Assembly (NCBI RefSeq): GCF_900636575.1 | Contig: NZ_LR134293.1 | Coordinates: forward strand, 1,365,501-1,429,500 | DNA: 64,000 bases | Reading direction: 5' to 3' | Source of the DNA: Streptococcus canis | GTDB lineage: Bacteria > Bacillota > Bacilli > Lactobacillales > Streptococcaceae | Part shown: positions 57,898-63,395 of the stretch, one piece after another | How positions within the stretch are numbered: position 1 is the first letter of the stretch | Layout: each line of letters begins with the position of its first letter | Translations under genes and position numbers: made by a program | The notes under the pieces: model-generated | Seen by the model: only the letters and a program-made list of their open reading frames with translations | The model's database searches: none | What the model was told of the DNA's origin: nothing

Positions 57898-59550
57898 TCA
57901 GGGTAATTTCATAGAGAGAATTTTGACTTGGTCAGGAGTAACCCGTAAGGTTTTTTGACCAGTATAAGTCACAAATCCTGGTTTAGCACCACTAGGTTTG
58001 TGCAATTTTTTAACTTCAATCATATCGACCTGAACGAGATTTGATAATCTGGCTTTCGAATAATAAGCGGCTAGTTCAGCAGCATCGGTTTTAACCTCAT
58101 CACTTGGATTAAGATTGTCTTTGATGATGACATGACTTCCAGGAATATCCTTAGCATGGAACCATAATTCTCCTTTTTTAGCCATTTTAAAGGTTAATTC
58201 TTCATTTTGGAGGTTATTGCGTCCCACCAAGAGAAGGGTTTTCCCATCTGAAGCTAGATATTGCTCAGGTTTTTTGCGTTTGTGACGCTTGTCACGGTGT
58301 CGATTTTTTAAAAAGCCAGCTTGGTACAATTCTTCACGGATATCTTCGATGTCGTCGATACTTGCTTGAGATAAATTGTATTCAACACTTTCAAAATAAG
58401 CAATACTTTGCTTGGTATCGGTAATCAGTCCAGATAAGTGTTTGACGGCTTCTTTTAATTTTTGATATTTTTTAAAATAACGTTGAGCGTTTTGGTTTGG
58501 AGTCAAGGCTTTGTCCAAGGCAATCTCAATCTGCTGACCAGTATAGTAATTGTCTAAACTCACTGTGTCTTGATTATTTGGAACCAGACTGAGGTAAGTG
58601 GTTAACAATTCCCCTTTTTGACGGAACAGCTCAGCATTTTCGGTGGCTAACAGCTCAGCCTCTTGTTTACGAAGCTTATTGCGAGTTTTGCTCAGTTCAG
58701 TTTGCACACGGTGGATCAAGTCGCTGGCTTGCTGATTGATACGGTCGCGCTCAGCCTTATCTTGATAAAAGTGATCAAGCATGTCGGACAAACAATCAAA
58801 TGTAGCATAACTATCTGAGAAAAGAACAGGTGCAAAAGAGGTTGTGGTCAGATTTGCCTGAGTAGGTCTGGCAAAAAAGTCACGGAACCGTTTTAATTTG
58901 TCTGTGGTCAGAAGTCCAGCTAATTCTTTTGCGGTGTCTCGCCCCAAACCTTGAAAATGCTGCTGCAAATTTTTAACGGACAAGTCTTGTGTTTGAAGGA
59001 TTTCAAAGAGAGGCACATCTGCAATCGTAAAAGGATTGACAGCAGCTGTTTTAGGGGGTTCAATATAGGTAGCGCCAGGTAAAATCGTGCGGTAAGAGTT
59101 TTGAGAGAAACCAACATGTTTAATGGATTCGATGATTTTATTTTCTGCACGGTCCACCAAAATGATATTGCTATGTTTGCCCATGATTTCAATGATCAGG
59201 GTTGCTTGAATAGCATCTCCGATTTCATTTTTATTAGATACCTTGATTTCGATAATGCGGTCATTATCAATCTGTTCCAACTGCTCAATGACAGCTCCCT
59301 GAAGGTATTTGCGCATAATCATGGTAAAGGTATTAGGTACCTGAGGATTTTGAAAGTCTGCTTGGGTGATTTGAAGTCGTCCAAAAACAGGATGGGCAGA
59401 CAATAGCAATTTATAATTCTTGCGATGGTTCCGAATGGTTAAAACAAGTTCCCGTTCAAAGGGCTGATTGACCTTTTGAATACGGCCGTAAAGCAAGTTC
59501 TCTTTTAATTCGTTGGTTAAATGGTGTAAGAAAAAGCCGTCAAAAGACAT
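57898..59550 (-). CDS. fbp54: NFACT family protein: Fbp54-type fibronectin-binding / RqcH
   Basis: 550 residues. NFACT-N domain (MSFDGFFLHHLTNELKENLL), HhH region near 200, long coiled coil about 260-410, and NFACT-R with ELWFHAKDIPGSHVIIKD near 455. In Bacillus, RqcH adds alanine tails to stalled nascent chains; in streptococci the same protein is reported on the surface as a fibronectin binder without a signal peptide, and none is seen here. No clear Shine-Dalgarno precedes the ATG. Confidence 0.93.
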   Translation of the reverse strand: MSFDGFFLHHLTNELKENLLYGRIQKVNQPFERELVLTIRNHRKNYKLLLSAHPVFGRLQITQADFQNPQVPNTFTMIMRKYLQGAVIEQLEQIDNDRIIEIKVSNKNEIGDAIQATLIIEIMGKHSNIILVDRAENKIIESIKHVGFSQNSYRTILPGATYIEPPKTAAVNPFTIADVPLFEILQTQDLSVKNLQQHFQGLGRDTAKELAGLLTTDKLKRFRDFFARPTQANLTTTSFAPVLFSDSYATFDCLSDMLDHFYQDKAERDRINQQASDLIHRVQTELSKTRNKLRKQEAELLATENAELFRQKGELLTTYLSLVPNNQDTVSLDNYYTGQQIEIALDKALTPNQNAQRYFKKYQKLKEAVKHLSGLITDTKQSIAYFESVEYNLSQASIDDIEDIREELYQAGFLKNRHRDKRHKRKKPEQYLASDGKTLLLVGRNNLQNEELTFKMAKKGELWFHAKDIPGSHVIIKDNLNPSDEVKTDAAELAAYYSKARLSNLVQVDMIEVKKLHKPSGAKPGFVTYTGQKTLRVTPDQVKILSMKLP

Positions 59551-59640
59551 GGTTTCTTATATTTATATTAGTGGATAGCTCCCGCTAGTATAAACCCTTT
59601 CTTTAATTATTTTTTAGATTTGTTTTATACTTAGTTCAGC

Positions 59641-59773
59641 GCTGTGGATTAGTACCATGTTTTAATCGCTTTGACGATTTAAAGGAGACTCTAACCACAG
59701 CTCTTTGTTTTATTGGTAATGAGAATGATAACGCTTTGACGTTTTATTTCGTGTAAGAATACAAGGCAAAGAG
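59641..59773 (+). ncRNA. Candidate IS110 bridge RNA (left-end noncoding region)
   Basis: Two adjacent stem-loops lie upstream of the transposase remnant. SL1: GCTGTGGATTAG (59641) pairs with CTAACCACAGC (59691-59701), inner stem TTTAATCG/CGATTTAAA. SL2: CTCTTTG (59701) pairs with CAAAGAG (59767-59773), inner stem AACG/CGTT. Both inner hairpins share the exact 10-mer CGCTTTGACG (59667-59676, 59732-59741), and both have large internal loops. This two-loop plan matches bridge RNAs of IS110 elements. A -10-like TATACT lies at 59627-59632. Confidence 0.55.
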
Positions 59774-59824
59774 TGCGTGGAACGAACAACAGCTGCTAAT
59801 CACTTGGAAAGGAATCAGAAACTT

Positions 59825-60963
59825 ATGTTCTATATTGGTATTGATATTGCCAAAACCAAACACGATTTAGCCTGTATCAATGAAACTGAAGAAACAGTGA
59901 TAACTAACTTCAGATTCGCCAATTCTTATCAAGGCTTTCATCAGCTTAAACTTAAACTAAAACAGCTCTCTCCTATCACACAAGATATCCATATAGCACT
60001 TGAAAGCACAGGACACTATAACTATAATATTGTTGCTTTCTTAAGAGAGTTAGGATATACCGTTTTCGCTTACAACCCTTTTATTATCAAACAATTTGCC
60101 AAATCTCAGTCTCTAAGGAAAACCAAAACAGATAAGCTCGTAAATTACGGTCTGATGTTACTCCTGAATATTATCAGACAGATAAAGTAATGGATGAGTT
60201 AAAAGAACTCACACGCTAGCAAAACCGTTTAATTCAGTCACGCTCTAAATGCAAGAACTTATATATCCGATTACTTGACATTATCTTTCCTGAGATTAAT
60301 AGCTACGTTAGTAATCTTCATAGTCATTTTGTCTATGAGTTATTGACTAAGTACCCTTCTGCTCAAAAGATAGCTCGTGCTAGAGTCTCATCGTTACTTA
60401 AAATCAAACGGCTAACCGCTGATAAAGCGCATCAGATACAAGAAGCAGCCAAACAAACGATTGGTAATGCTTCGTCAGCTTTATCCCTAGAGCTAGTGCA
60501 GTTAATTGAAAGTATTCAACACTATGATAAACAGATTAATCAAACTCAAGAAGAAATTAACCGATTGATGGCTGAATTGGATTCTTCCATCACCTCTATT
60601 TCTGGAATCGGAAGTCGTCTTGGTGCTATTATCCTAGCTGAAATTAAGACTATCTATAATTTCAAGAATCCAGACCAGCTTCAAGCTTTCGCTGGATTAG
60701 ACCCTGCTATTTACCAATCAGGACAGTTGGATAATACCGGTCATATGGTAAAACGAGGCTCCTCTTATCTAAGGTATGCCCTAATACAAGCTGCCAAACT
60801 CATCTCCATTTACTCACCGCATTTTAAAACCTATTTAAAGCTAAAAATCAGTCACGGCAAACACTATAATGTGGCTGTGACACTTATTGCCAAGAAGCTT
60901 ATTCGTGTCATTTATCATCTCCTCAAAACCAATCAAACCTTTGATGAGGCTAAACTAAGATAA
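59825..60963 (+). pseudogene. IS110-family transposase, inactivated
   Basis: N-terminal RuvC-like DEDD domain is intact (MFYIGIDIAKTKHDLACINE, then ALESTGHYNYNIVAFL) until about 60140, where a deletion/frameshift after TKTDKL leads to a stop at 60190. The next frame continues as TPEYYQTDKVMDELKELTR, hits TAG at 60217-60219, and resumes QNRLIQSRSKCKNLYIRLLD. The C-terminal Transposase_20 domain is present (ISGIGSRLGAIILAEIKT, GLDPAIYQSGQLDNTG), with the catalytic Ser region KRGSSYLRYALIQ. At least two lesions. Confidence 0.85.
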
Positions 60964-60989
60964 AAATACAGAAATCAAGAATGATTTTT

Positions 60990-61016
60990 AAAACTTGCTC
61001 AAGGGCAAGAGTTTTT
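60990..61016 (+). terminator. Terminator downstream of the IS110 remnant
   Basis: AAAACTTGC, TCAAGG loop, GCAAGAGTTTTT (one bulge). Confidence 0.65.
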
Positions 61017-61028
61017 GCGTGTCTAAAA

Positions 61029-61124
61029 TTGAGCTTTTAGACGAAAAGGTGTAAAATAATAAGTGCATCCTCCAGACGATTGAGTAACTTGCATTCAAGT
61101 TTATCGCAGTGGGGGTGTTTTTTT
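61029..61124 (+). ncRNA. Candidate small RNA with its own promoter and terminator
   Basis: TTGAGC (61029-61034), 17 bp, TAAAAT (61052-61057) would start a transcript near 61064. The predicted RNA folds as GCATCCTC (61065-61072) with GGGGGTGT (61111-61118), inner CGAT/ATCG and ACTTG/CAAGT pairs, then seven T. It holds TCCTCC, complementary to a Shine-Dalgarno. It could instead be part of the IS right end or simply a terminator. Confidence 0.35.
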
Positions 61125-61230
61125 ATTTTGTAGAATTTTCTCTTGACTTTTTATATAGAATGTCTCCTTTCTGAATTCTAATCTCTTCATTATACCACAA
61201 ATGTTTGGTTAAAAATATGAACGAAAGTTC

Positions 61231-61335: not shown

Positions 61336-61453
61336 GTTGTGTTTATGAGCTGTCATGGATACGACTTTTAGAGTACTTCTAAAAAGGTATCTATGCGCTG
61401 ACATTGGATTTCACAAGAGCGCCTAGTAGTAAATACTAAGCGCTTTTTCTTTT
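61321..61453 (+). promoter_or_regulatory. Transcription attenuator of the trpXYZ-like operon
   Basis: Hairpin 1: AGCT..CATA (61321-61330) with TATGAGCT (61344-61352), covering the second Trp codon. Hairpin 2: TGTCA (61351-61355), GATAC and CTTTTAGA with TCTAAAAG, GTATC and TGACA (61399-61403). Terminator: AGCGCCTAGTA (61418-61428) with TACTAAGCGCT (61434-61444), then TTTTCTTTT. GCGCT at 61395-61399 can also capture AGCGC at 61418-61422, opening the terminator. Order and overlaps fit attenuation by ribosome stalling at Trp codons. Confidence 0.65.
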
Positions 61454-61512
61454 GAGAAGGATTCTCATCATCAACAGTGTAAAGAGATTAACAAGAAATG
61501 TGAGGAATTAAG

Positions 61513-62508
61513 ATGAAAAATAAGAGCTTAATAGTAACTCTAATCATATTAATGGTAATGGTGATAGGCTCTCTATTAGCAAAAGGCATGGCAAAAGAGA
61601 AAGATGATTTGGCCAGTCAAAAAAACATTAAGATTGGTATATTACAGCTAGTGACCCACGAAGCCCTAGATGATATTGAACGCGGTATTGAAGATCAGCT
61701 TAGAAAGCAAACGCCTAAAGGGAAACACGTGACCATTAAGCTAATGAACGCCGAAGGGGATCAGAGTAAAATTCAGGCCATGAGCCGCCAGTTAACCCAG
61801 TCAGGAAATGATATTGTGATTGGAATTGCGACTCCAGCAGCTCAAGGATTAGCCGCTGCCACTAAAGATATTCCCGTTGTCATGTCAGCCATTTCTGATC
61901 CTGTTGGTGCGAAGTTGGTAAAGCACTTGGAGAGACCCGAAGGCAATGTGACAGGCTTGTCTAATAAAGTTCCCGTCAAGCAAACCATTGACTTGATGAG
62001 AGAATTGACTCCTGAGGCAAAACGAATTGGAGTGTTATATGCTAGTAATGAGGATAATTCCTTATCACAAGTAAAGTCCTTTAGTCAGCTGGCTCAGAAA
62101 AAGGGTTATCAAGTTATTCCCTATGCAGTCCCATCAACTAACGAAGTTCCTACGACCATGTCCGTCATGTTGAGTAAGGTAGATGCTATATTTATTCCGC
62201 AAGATAACACCATTGCAAGTGCCTTTTCATCTGTCATTACCGCCAGTAAAGCGTCAAAGGTTCCAGTTTACTCTAGTGTGGATACTATGGTTAAAGAGGG
62301 CAGCTTGGCCTCTATTTCTCAAAGTCAGTATCAATTAGGTGTTGAGACAGCTAATCAGGTTTTACGATTGATTAAAGGAAAAGCTGTTGCCGATATTTCG
62401 GTCAAGGTTATTGATCATGGTAAACCACTAATAAATAAAAAGGTAGCAGAAGAACTTGGAATTCCTATGTCACAACACCTTTTGGACACAGTCTCATTTG
62501 TAGAGTAA
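61513..62508 (+). CDS. trpX: ABC transporter substrate-binding protein, tryptophan type (TrpX-like)
   Basis: 331 residues. N-terminal membrane segment (SLIVTLIILMVMVIGSLLA) without a lipobox Cys, then an ABC_sub_bind-type domain: IKIGILQLVTHEALDDIERG, VIGIATPAAQGLAAATKDIP, SAISDPVGAKLV, NVTGLSNKVPV. Similar proteins with the same permease/ATPase pair are assigned to tryptophan uptake in streptococci. The Trp-rich leader supports that substrate. RBS GAGG, 11-14 bases before ATG. Confidence 0.85.
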   Translation: MKNKSLIVTLIILMVMVIGSLLAKGMAKEKDDLASQKNIKIGILQLVTHEALDDIERGIEDQLRKQTPKGKHVTIKLMNAEGDQSKIQAMSRQLTQSGNDIVIGIATPAAQGLAAATKDIPVVMSAISDPVGAKLVKHLERPEGNVTGLSNKVPVKQTIDLMRELTPEAKRIGVLYASNEDNSLSQVKSFSQLAQKKGYQVIPYAVPSTNEVPTTMSVMLSKVDAIFIPQDNTIASAFSSVITASKASKVPVYSSVDTMVKEGSLASISQSQYQLGVETANQVLRLIKGKAVADISVKVIDHGKPLINKKVAEELGIPMSQHLLDTVSFVE

Positions 62509-62525: not shown

Positions 62526-63395
62526 ATGATTATTTCATCAGTTTCACAAGGCCTCTTCTGGGGAATTTTAGGCTTGGGGATTTATTTGACCTTTAGGATT
62601 TTAAATTTTCCTGACATGACTACTGAGGGCTCCTTTCCCTTAGGCGGTGCGGTTACGGTCACGGCTATTCATTTAGGCTGGAATCCCTTTATGTCAACTT
62701 TTCTTGGCATGTTTGCTGGAGCTCTAGCAGGGCTTCTAACGGGACTTTTATACACTAAGGGGAAAATTCCAACGATTCTAGCTGGAATTTTGGTGATGAC
62801 TTCTTGTCATTCCATTATGTTAATGGTCATGGGAAGAGCTAATTTAGGGTTGCATGACAACAAGCGCGTTCACGATTACCTCCCCTTTTCAGCAGATGTG
62901 AGCAGTCTTCTAACAGGCTTATTGGTGGTTGTAATTGTCATTAGTCTTTTGATCTATTTCCTTTACACCAACCTTGGGCAGGCATATATTGCTACGGGTG
63001 ATAACAGAGACATGGCAAAAAGTTTTGGAATTGATACTGACCGCATGGAGGTCATGGGATTAGTTGTGTCCAATGCCTTGATCGCCCTATCAGGAGCCTT
63101 GGTTAGTCAACAAGATGGTTATGCTGATGTTTCAAAGGGAATTGGTGTTATTGTTATTGGTTTGGCCAGTATTATTGTTGGAGAGGTGCTTTATTCAACA
63201 GGTTTAACACTTTTGGAGCGGTTAATTGCTATTGTTGTGGGATCAATCCTATATCAATTTTTAATTTCAGCTGTCATTGCACTCGGATTTAACACCAACT
63301 ATCTAAAATTATTTAGTGCCCTTGTTTTAGCCCTATGCTTAATGGTGCCAGTATTAAAGCAACGTTTTTTTAAAGGGATGAGGTTATCACGATGA
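62526..63395 (+). CDS. trpY: ABC transporter permease, tryptophan type (TrpY-like)
   Basis: 289 residues, eight to nine hydrophobic helices, of the branched-chain-permease type (BPD_transp_2): FRILNFPDMTTEGSFPLGGA, NLGQAYIATGDNRDMAKSFG (cytoplasmic coupling loop) and IGVIVIGLASIIVGEVLY. RBS AAAGGAAAAAT. The stop overlaps the ATPase start (ATGA). Confidence 0.9.
   Translation: MIISSVSQGLFWGILGLGIYLTFRILNFPDMTTEGSFPLGGAVTVTAIHLGWNPFMSTFLGMFAGALAGLLTGLLYTKGKIPTILAGILVMTSCHSIMLMVMGRANLGLHDNKRVHDYLPFSADVSSLLTGLLVVVIVISLLIYFLYTNLGQAYIATGDNRDMAKSFGIDTDRMEVMGLVVSNALIALSGALVSQQDGYADVSKGIGVIVIGLASIIVGEVLYSTGLTLLERLIAIVVGSILYQFLISAVIALGFNTNYLKLFSALVLALCLMVPVLKQRFFKGMRLSR

Follow-up and report, generated by a model that had tools for sequence, protein, structure and literature searches.

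The window, i.e. the whole stretch of 64,000 nucleotides of Streptococcus canis DNA that was analysed, contains an insertion sequence of the IS110 group, whose features are collected in Table 1. The element lies antisense to a gene encoding an RqcH/fibronectin-binding-like protein, at a site made of the Shine-Dalgarno (SD) sequence and start-codon region of that gene, which matches the NCBIfam models NF038240 and NF041120 with strong E-values, yet below their cut-offs. The core dinucleotide, CT, is also that of IS621. The empty form of the site was found within the same gene of a related genome (locus L125, genome G018), identical to the window flanks over ten left bases, one CT and eight right bases. 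The target duplication is confined to the core, the empty site being composed of left flank, CT and right flank, as is typical of the IS110 group; the site of a sister copy is likewise empty in G018, within a closely similar sequence. The element begins 85 nt to the left of the two stem-loops described below. An assignment of its first 84 nt to the host target was discarded, since these nucleotides are also found ahead of the RNA in relatives inserted elsewhere and are missing from the empty site.

Table 1. Features of the IS110-group element and of its target gene; coordinates are those of the window.
Feature	Coordinates	Strand	Basis
Target gene, RqcH/fibronectin-binding-like protein, SD split by insertion	57898..59550	-	NCBIfam matches, empty site
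IS110-group element, 1608 bp (one core counted)	59556..61163	+	Ends from two-copy comparison, relatives, empty site
Left core dinucleotide CT	59556..59557	+	GACATGGTTT-CT-CCTTTCTG unbroken in L125 (genome G018)
-10 box TATATT of the joined RE-LE junction promoter (predicted)	59558..59563	+	Junction spacing
Inverted repeat / 5' stem-loop, 13 pairs counted, also terminator-like score	59562..59594	+	Promoter/terminator scan
Predicted bridge RNA, ~206 nt	59570..59775	+	Start inferred from -10 box; fold
Target-binding stem-loop	59641..59701	+	Fold, covariation
Left target guide (LTG) ACCATGTTTT, start-codon side	59654..59663	+	Homology with other guides; own register uncertain by 1 nt
Target-loop tip hairpin, CGCTTTGACG	59667..59676	+	Sequence
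Right target guide (RTG) AAAGGAGAC, SD-like; pairs with right flank CTCCTTT	59681..59689	+	Guide/flank comparison
Donor-binding stem-loop	59702..59773	+	Fold, covariation
Left donor guide (LDG) AGAATG, same letters as element right end	59722..59727	+	Guide/end comparison
Donor-loop tip hairpin, CGCTTTGACG	59732..59741	+	Sequence
Right donor guide (RDG) GTGTAAG, pairs (two G-T) with left end CTTATAT	59751..59757	+	Sequence
Recombinase N-terminal piece (DEDD domain), cut by shared 19-nt deletion at ~60135	59825..60190	+	PF01548
Recombinase C-terminal piece	60343..60963	+	PF02371
-35 box TTGACT, in right end (predicted)	61143..61148	+	Junction analysis
Right end AGAATGT (left donor half)	61157..61163	+	Right ends of relatives, LDG match
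Right core dinucleotide CT, outside the 1608 bp	61164..61165	+	Relatives, empty site

The recombinase gene is broken, as the original prediction had stated. The DEDD (PF01548) and C-terminal (PF02371) domains that mark the IS110 group are recognised in two separate pieces, and the frame is destroyed by a 19-nt deletion, which shifts it, and by an in-frame stop; three intact relatives of 381-385 aa align with the gene. A PF01548 search across the whole genome returned three loci and no intact gene. The inventory of this genome comprises the window copy, the sister copy (~99% identical), a third, truncated remnant, a left end of 84 nt standing alone and an end-only derivative of 93 bp. The sister copy carries the same 19-nt deletion, without the in-frame stop, and lies between wholly different flanks; the two copies occupy two different, correctly cut SD sites. 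Their target loops are identical, their donor loops differ at three positions, and five differences between them are clustered in 18 bp (60571-60588).

Because copies with one and the same lesion occupy distinct sites, both correctly cut, a protein from outside would once have mobilised a dead copy in trans, or else the lesion would have spread by gene conversion. The latter, in which the deletion passed between two old copies and no dead copy ever moved, falls a little short of an even chance: the clustering of the five differences resembles that of conversion tracts, whereas the ~99% identity over 1.6 kb, together with the different flanks, is equally explained by one recent transposition.

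Upstream of the recombinase gene, two adjoining stem-loops with internal loops had been predicted at 59641-59773, and they are borne out. This stretch of 133 nt folds at -35 kcal/mol, compared to a mean of -24.45 (sd 3.38) for its shuffles (z -3.12), and none of 200 shuffles folded equally well. The predicted RNA is longer, beginning near 59570 with a third, 5' stem-loop, and as a whole it folds weakly better than its shuffles (z -1.9; 7 of 200 as good). It is located in the left end, 5' of the recombinase gene, as expected for the IS110 group, whereas in IS1111, which is marked by long (sub)terminal inverted repeats, the RNA is at the right end. A search of Rfam at gathering score gave no match over the bridge-RNA region.

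Covariation, which had been proposed as a check on the fold, was evaluated on an alignment of 36 of the 38 distinct sequences (L085 and L086 were left out, after an earlier removal of seven rows that were partial or false). Nineteen of the 42 pairs change on both sides among the 36 relatives, compared to 7.9 +/- 1.5 in shuffles, 19 being reached in none of 500; when partners were slid, 6-10 pairs showed two-sided changes. RNAalifold, unaided, finds 20 pairs, 12 of them with compensatory changes, and misses the donor loop's outer stem, in which gaps put the 3' arm out of alignment (72% of cells paired in the two-sided count). A free-register count for this stem (mean of 5.89 of 6 pairs versus 5.44 when swapped) was dropped because of wrong registers in several rows. 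By covariation, the RNA structure is real, with the two internal-loop stem-loops that characterize bridge RNAs.

An identical 10-mer at the two inner hairpins had also been pointed out. It is indeed present twice, at the loop tips, but it is not a conserved feature and was rejected as a signal: the second loop of the sister copy reads CGCTTGGACG (one base off), relatives differ, and only a CG...GACG-type tip is common among them. The repeat is of interest in another respect, since two copies from Streptococcus varani (L009 and L031, the same insertions as L042 and L043; genome G013) have lost the stretch between the tips, the 5' half of the target loop being fused to the 3' half of the donor loop. 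With their open recombinase frame and broken RNA, they are the mirror image of the window copy; they do not fit the regular expression used for parsing sites and are absent from the site counts below. A third S. varani left end (L151) is cut off within the tip by the end of its contig.

The internal loops were compared with the ends of the elements. In 24 of 26 elements, the LDG includes the right-end (RE) hexamer of the same element; swapped guides do so in 7.6 on average and in 16 at most (5000 swaps). The hexamers span five variants (AGAATG, AGTTTG, AGTTCG, AGTTAG and AGTTGG), and the two exceptions are L084 and L053, a chimeric Streptococcus gallolyticus element. Together with the RDG, which fits the left end (LE) by sequence, the donor loop matches the element ends as in bridge RNAs. 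As to the chimeras, four copies of S. gallolyticus BI02 (L053, L065, L067 and L069) look as if their target loop, donor loop and ends came from two IS lineages, apparently through natural recombination of bridge-RNA parts within one genome.

When the ends were joined in silico, the arrangement TTGAC, 17 nt, TATA(A/T)T was obtained for all 26 elements, 25 by regular expression and L072 by eye, the script having chosen another hexamer. The end-finding patterns had required a pentamer resembling TTGAC, a tip of the type AGNNNG and CTT(A/G)TAT at the start, so that these letters are partly selected; the 17-nt spacing and the swap test of the LDG lie outside what the patterns selected for. By sequence, a promoter is thus predicted across the RE-LE junction, as in bridge-RNA elements. 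In the integrated state, the left-end -10 box has no -35 partner other than the one in the right end, 1.6 kb away, and a weak scan (6 promoter-like sites found, 5.5 expected by chance) called none at the left end.

Two end-only derivatives, one of 93 bp in the same genome (L006) and one of 80 bp in genome G138 (L019), consist of left and right tips placed before a start codon, and are candidate non-autonomous IS110 elements; in L019 the TTGAC is lost. The idea that such mini-elements form an abundant family was rejected: 59 genomes gave known copies, one more S. varani left end and weak partial matches in four genomes.

Complementarity between the target loop and the insertion site, also put forward as a check, was found, in full for the right guide and less well for the left one. 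The RTG of the window copy matches its site through AAAGGAG, completely over the scored positions; the match of the LTG to its own flank is moderate, 7 of 10 positions agreeing when the best register is chosen and 6 when that of the relatives is applied. The corresponding values are 7 and 5 at the sister site, and the best fit of the three own sites, 9 of 10, is that of the third (L005).

In order to extend the comparison, guides were scored against their own flanks and against those obtained by swapping. Of 151 relatives, the best 80 were kept. From 121 loci, 54 rows fitted the regular expression; two false rows (L103, L113) and six without a recognised left end (L020, L027, L073, L074, L086, L090) were dropped, leaving 46 sites, with right ends found in 26. 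The mean identity of the LTG to its own left flank is 0.573, compared to 0.382 for swapped guides (46 sites; none of 5000 swaps as high). The sites are not all independent (45 distinct left flanks in 46, and several copies per genome); with one entry per distinct guide (n=28) the figures are 0.612 and 0.377 (none of 5000). For the RTG, the five bases after the core gave 0.708 against 0.339 (26 sites; none of 5000); they were used in place of a version including the constant core T, which gives 0.756.

A set of new sites was assembled from three sources, namely plasmids with annotation, one phage, and 395 genomes searched with a covariance model. In these the LTG scored 0.571 versus 0.423 when swapped (n=14; 3 of 5000 as high) and the RTG 0.800 versus 0.398 (n=10; none of 5000), some of the new sites reusing guides of the first set (e.g. 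L199). The 14 sites were parsed from 39 loci (L164-L202), the rest being duplicates of the first set or misfits to the pattern. The plasmid records were eight (H1-H7 and H9) of the 40 listed, from 4289 matching ones, and the phage was one of the 30 listed. In a separate search, 23 of 247 genomes had a match, with two candidates scored per genome, so that copy numbers there are minima. The two copies of genome G204 have a common guide that ends in ACACC, as do both of their flanks; L062 and L075 have non-SD targets, and their guides resemble the sites that they now occupy. The phage copy (L172, Faecalibacterium phage Roos) is an element of the clade within a phage gene cluster, and its five scored RTG positions match the flank. 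Target guides that match the flanks, added to the fold, the covariation and the donor guides, uphold the original view of the RNA as bridge-RNA-like.

The location of the sites with respect to genes was also analysed. At 34 of the 46 sites, an open frame of 40 aa or longer begins on the opposite strand at a distance of 4-19 nt from the core, with ATG as its start codon in 33; random positions in the same flanks gave a start codon in 1138 of 3926 cases on the matching strand (525 ATG) and in 531 of 3911 on the other (202 ATG). No start codon was found within 20 nt at 12 of the 46 sites, nor within 22 nt at 4 of the 14 new ones. Of nine annotated plasmid and phage copies, six have the start of the neighbouring CDS at 8-22 nt from the core; in phage Roos it lies directly at the core (with an in-frame TTG 9 nt off), in another copy 50 nt away, and in one there is none. 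An SD consensus of at least 5 nt is present in 29 of 36 reconstructed empty sites and in 8.7% of 20,000 random CT sites; for at least 4 nt the values are 33 of 36 and 31%.

The core occupies one of the two AG positions of AAAGGAGG, which defines two registers, 3 nt apart within the SD. In register 1 the length of the SD match is unchanged by the insertion in all of 21 sites, whereas in register 2 it is retained in only one of 13. The preservation in register 1 is suggestive and no proof of selection, since one element base contributes beyond the shared core. The window copy belongs to register 2, and the SD match of its gene drops from 6 to 3 nt. On a quick recombinase tree, built without bootstraps from 32 of 40 recombinases (eight with wrong or partial frames, or near-copies, were excluded) and with registers labelled by hand from sites or guides, the starred branches force at least 6 changes for register 1 and at least 4 for register 2. 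The registers are clustered on the tree, the 8 changes counted being as low in only 1 of 200 shuffles.

This clustering, and the fact that most guides belong to one clade, would suit an explanation in which SD targeting is a by-product of guides that are purine-rich by common ancestry and of SD motifs being common. Such an explanation is improbable, given that guides track their own flanks better than swapped guides do, that the registers alternate while both stay in the SD, and that the frequency of 5-nt SD matches at random CT sites is far below that of the empty sites. Taken together, the sequences suggest that these elements insert at the SD in many bacteria, with a guide that would copy the ribosome-binding signal.

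The feature at this locus is therefore, very probably, the bridge RNA of a dead IS110-group element, with a guide directed to the SD, transcribed from the circle, representative of a whole clade in two registers, and now most likely inactive. The ends, the core, the empty site, the guide matches, the covariation, the SD location and the broken genes were all read from sequence, and the steps by which the RNA would act can be outlined as follows. The element would be excised as a circle, whose joined ends would form a sigma-70-type promoter transcribing the RNA; the latter would be bound by the recombinase. The donor loop would read the joined ends, and the target loop the antisense strand of the SD and start-codon region, the right guide itself being an SD sequence. 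Recombination at the CT core would then insert the element antisense to a gene, within the SD of that gene, and the clade of relatives would behave likewise, in either register.

It had also been proposed that the RNA may continue to act in trans for sister copies, and this part is not supported for the present state of the genome. Continued production of the RNA, with guidance of sister copies by it, is very unlikely, even though the two full copies have the same target loop and differ at three positions of the donor loop, both copies share one recombinase lesion at two SD sites, and bridge RNA and seekRNA do work when supplied in trans, according to the available text of two reports (PMC11208160, PMC11187229). 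Against it stand the three broken PF01548 loci, with no intact recombinase found in the genome, and the -35 box placed 1.6 kb off at the other end, no promoter-like site having been called at the left end by the weak scan. On these grounds the bridge RNA is most likely silent and idle here, preserved in its own genome but now inactive, and what survives of the trans proposal is historical, i.e. either a past mobilisation of the dead copy or gene conversion. Scarcely credible is a fold acting as an ordinary regulatory leader (attenuator) of the transposase gene, with no guide RNA, which could call on the 13-pair terminator-like hairpin just upstream and would leave unexplained why loop bases covary with the flanking sequences and with the element's distal end.

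For the clade as a whole, we lean towards a broader interpretation, namely that of a widespread, predominantly Firmicutes group of IS110 elements with bridge RNAs imitating the SD, whose guides would have been re-tuned several times between two registers within it. The left tip in register 1 would keep the full SD match and make the insertion nearly silent for translation, so that the SD would offer a safe and universal landing site, and dead copies as well as end-only derivatives (80-93 bp) would be carried as passengers in trans.

The molecule itself is of a known kind, a bridge RNA (PMC11208160, PMC11187229), and SD targeting has a published precedent in IS900, as judged from the title of the report. 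The features described in the main text of Durrant et al. 2024 (PMC11208160) for IS621 recur here: an RNA in the left end with a 5' stem-loop, a target loop and a donor loop; the LTG/RTG/LDG/RDG layout with included core dinucleotide; a DEDD and serine recombinase; and a promoter across the RE-LE junction, acting as circle promoter. The example target of IS621 is provided by REP elements, whereas the clade of the window uses SD and start-codon regions, and the words Shine, ribosome and start codon are absent from that main text. ISEc21, the seekRNA system of Siddiquee et al. 2024 (PMC11187229), is similar in being an IS110-type element with an upstream non-coding region, a promoter in the circle with abutted ends and an RNA that works when supplied in trans; its target is a different one, and no SD target is described in the part of that report available here. 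Translation initiation signals are the target of IS900, an IS110-family element of Mycobacterium avium subsp. paratuberculosis, by the title of Doran et al. 1997 (listed in PMC8141618), according to which the targeting serves the expression of the antisense hed gene. IS900, known here by that title alone, resembles the window clade in its targeting and differs in the hed gene, the longest antisense open stretches in the clade being of 44-121 aa; a hed-like gene was accordingly rejected as a reason for SD insertion, such lengths being found in 26 of 26 elements. No paper linking bridge RNAs to SD targets was found in the literature searched, which included few subscription papers and no bioRxiv; the supplements of PMC11208160 and PMC11187229, whose target logos may contain such sites, were outside its scope.

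Guide pairing would provide a mechanism for the target preference reported in 1997 for an IS110-family element. The shift between registers would be a natural case of bridge-RNA retargeting inside one functional site, useful for learning guide rules, and the clade is a source of numerous natural pairs of guide and target in Gram-positive bacteria. Should the interpretation of a preserved SD be correct, an RNA-guided element can pick a site before nearly every gene without killing the gene.

A few minor observations concern recurrent sites and the surroundings of the element. L008 and L076 (S. equinus) and L089 (S. gallolyticus) have identical left flanks at the same gene and somewhat different guides, which may reflect an inherited or a parallel insertion. 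Just 3' of the window element, at 61352-61455, lies the Rfam trpB ncRNA motif RF04312 (63.9 bits), followed by an ABC-transporter-like operon with an ORF at 61513-62508 and a permease-like gene (PF02653) at 62526-63395, ~1.4 kb from the insertion. A degenerate copy in genome G044 (L014) is located before a gene closely resembling this permease gene.
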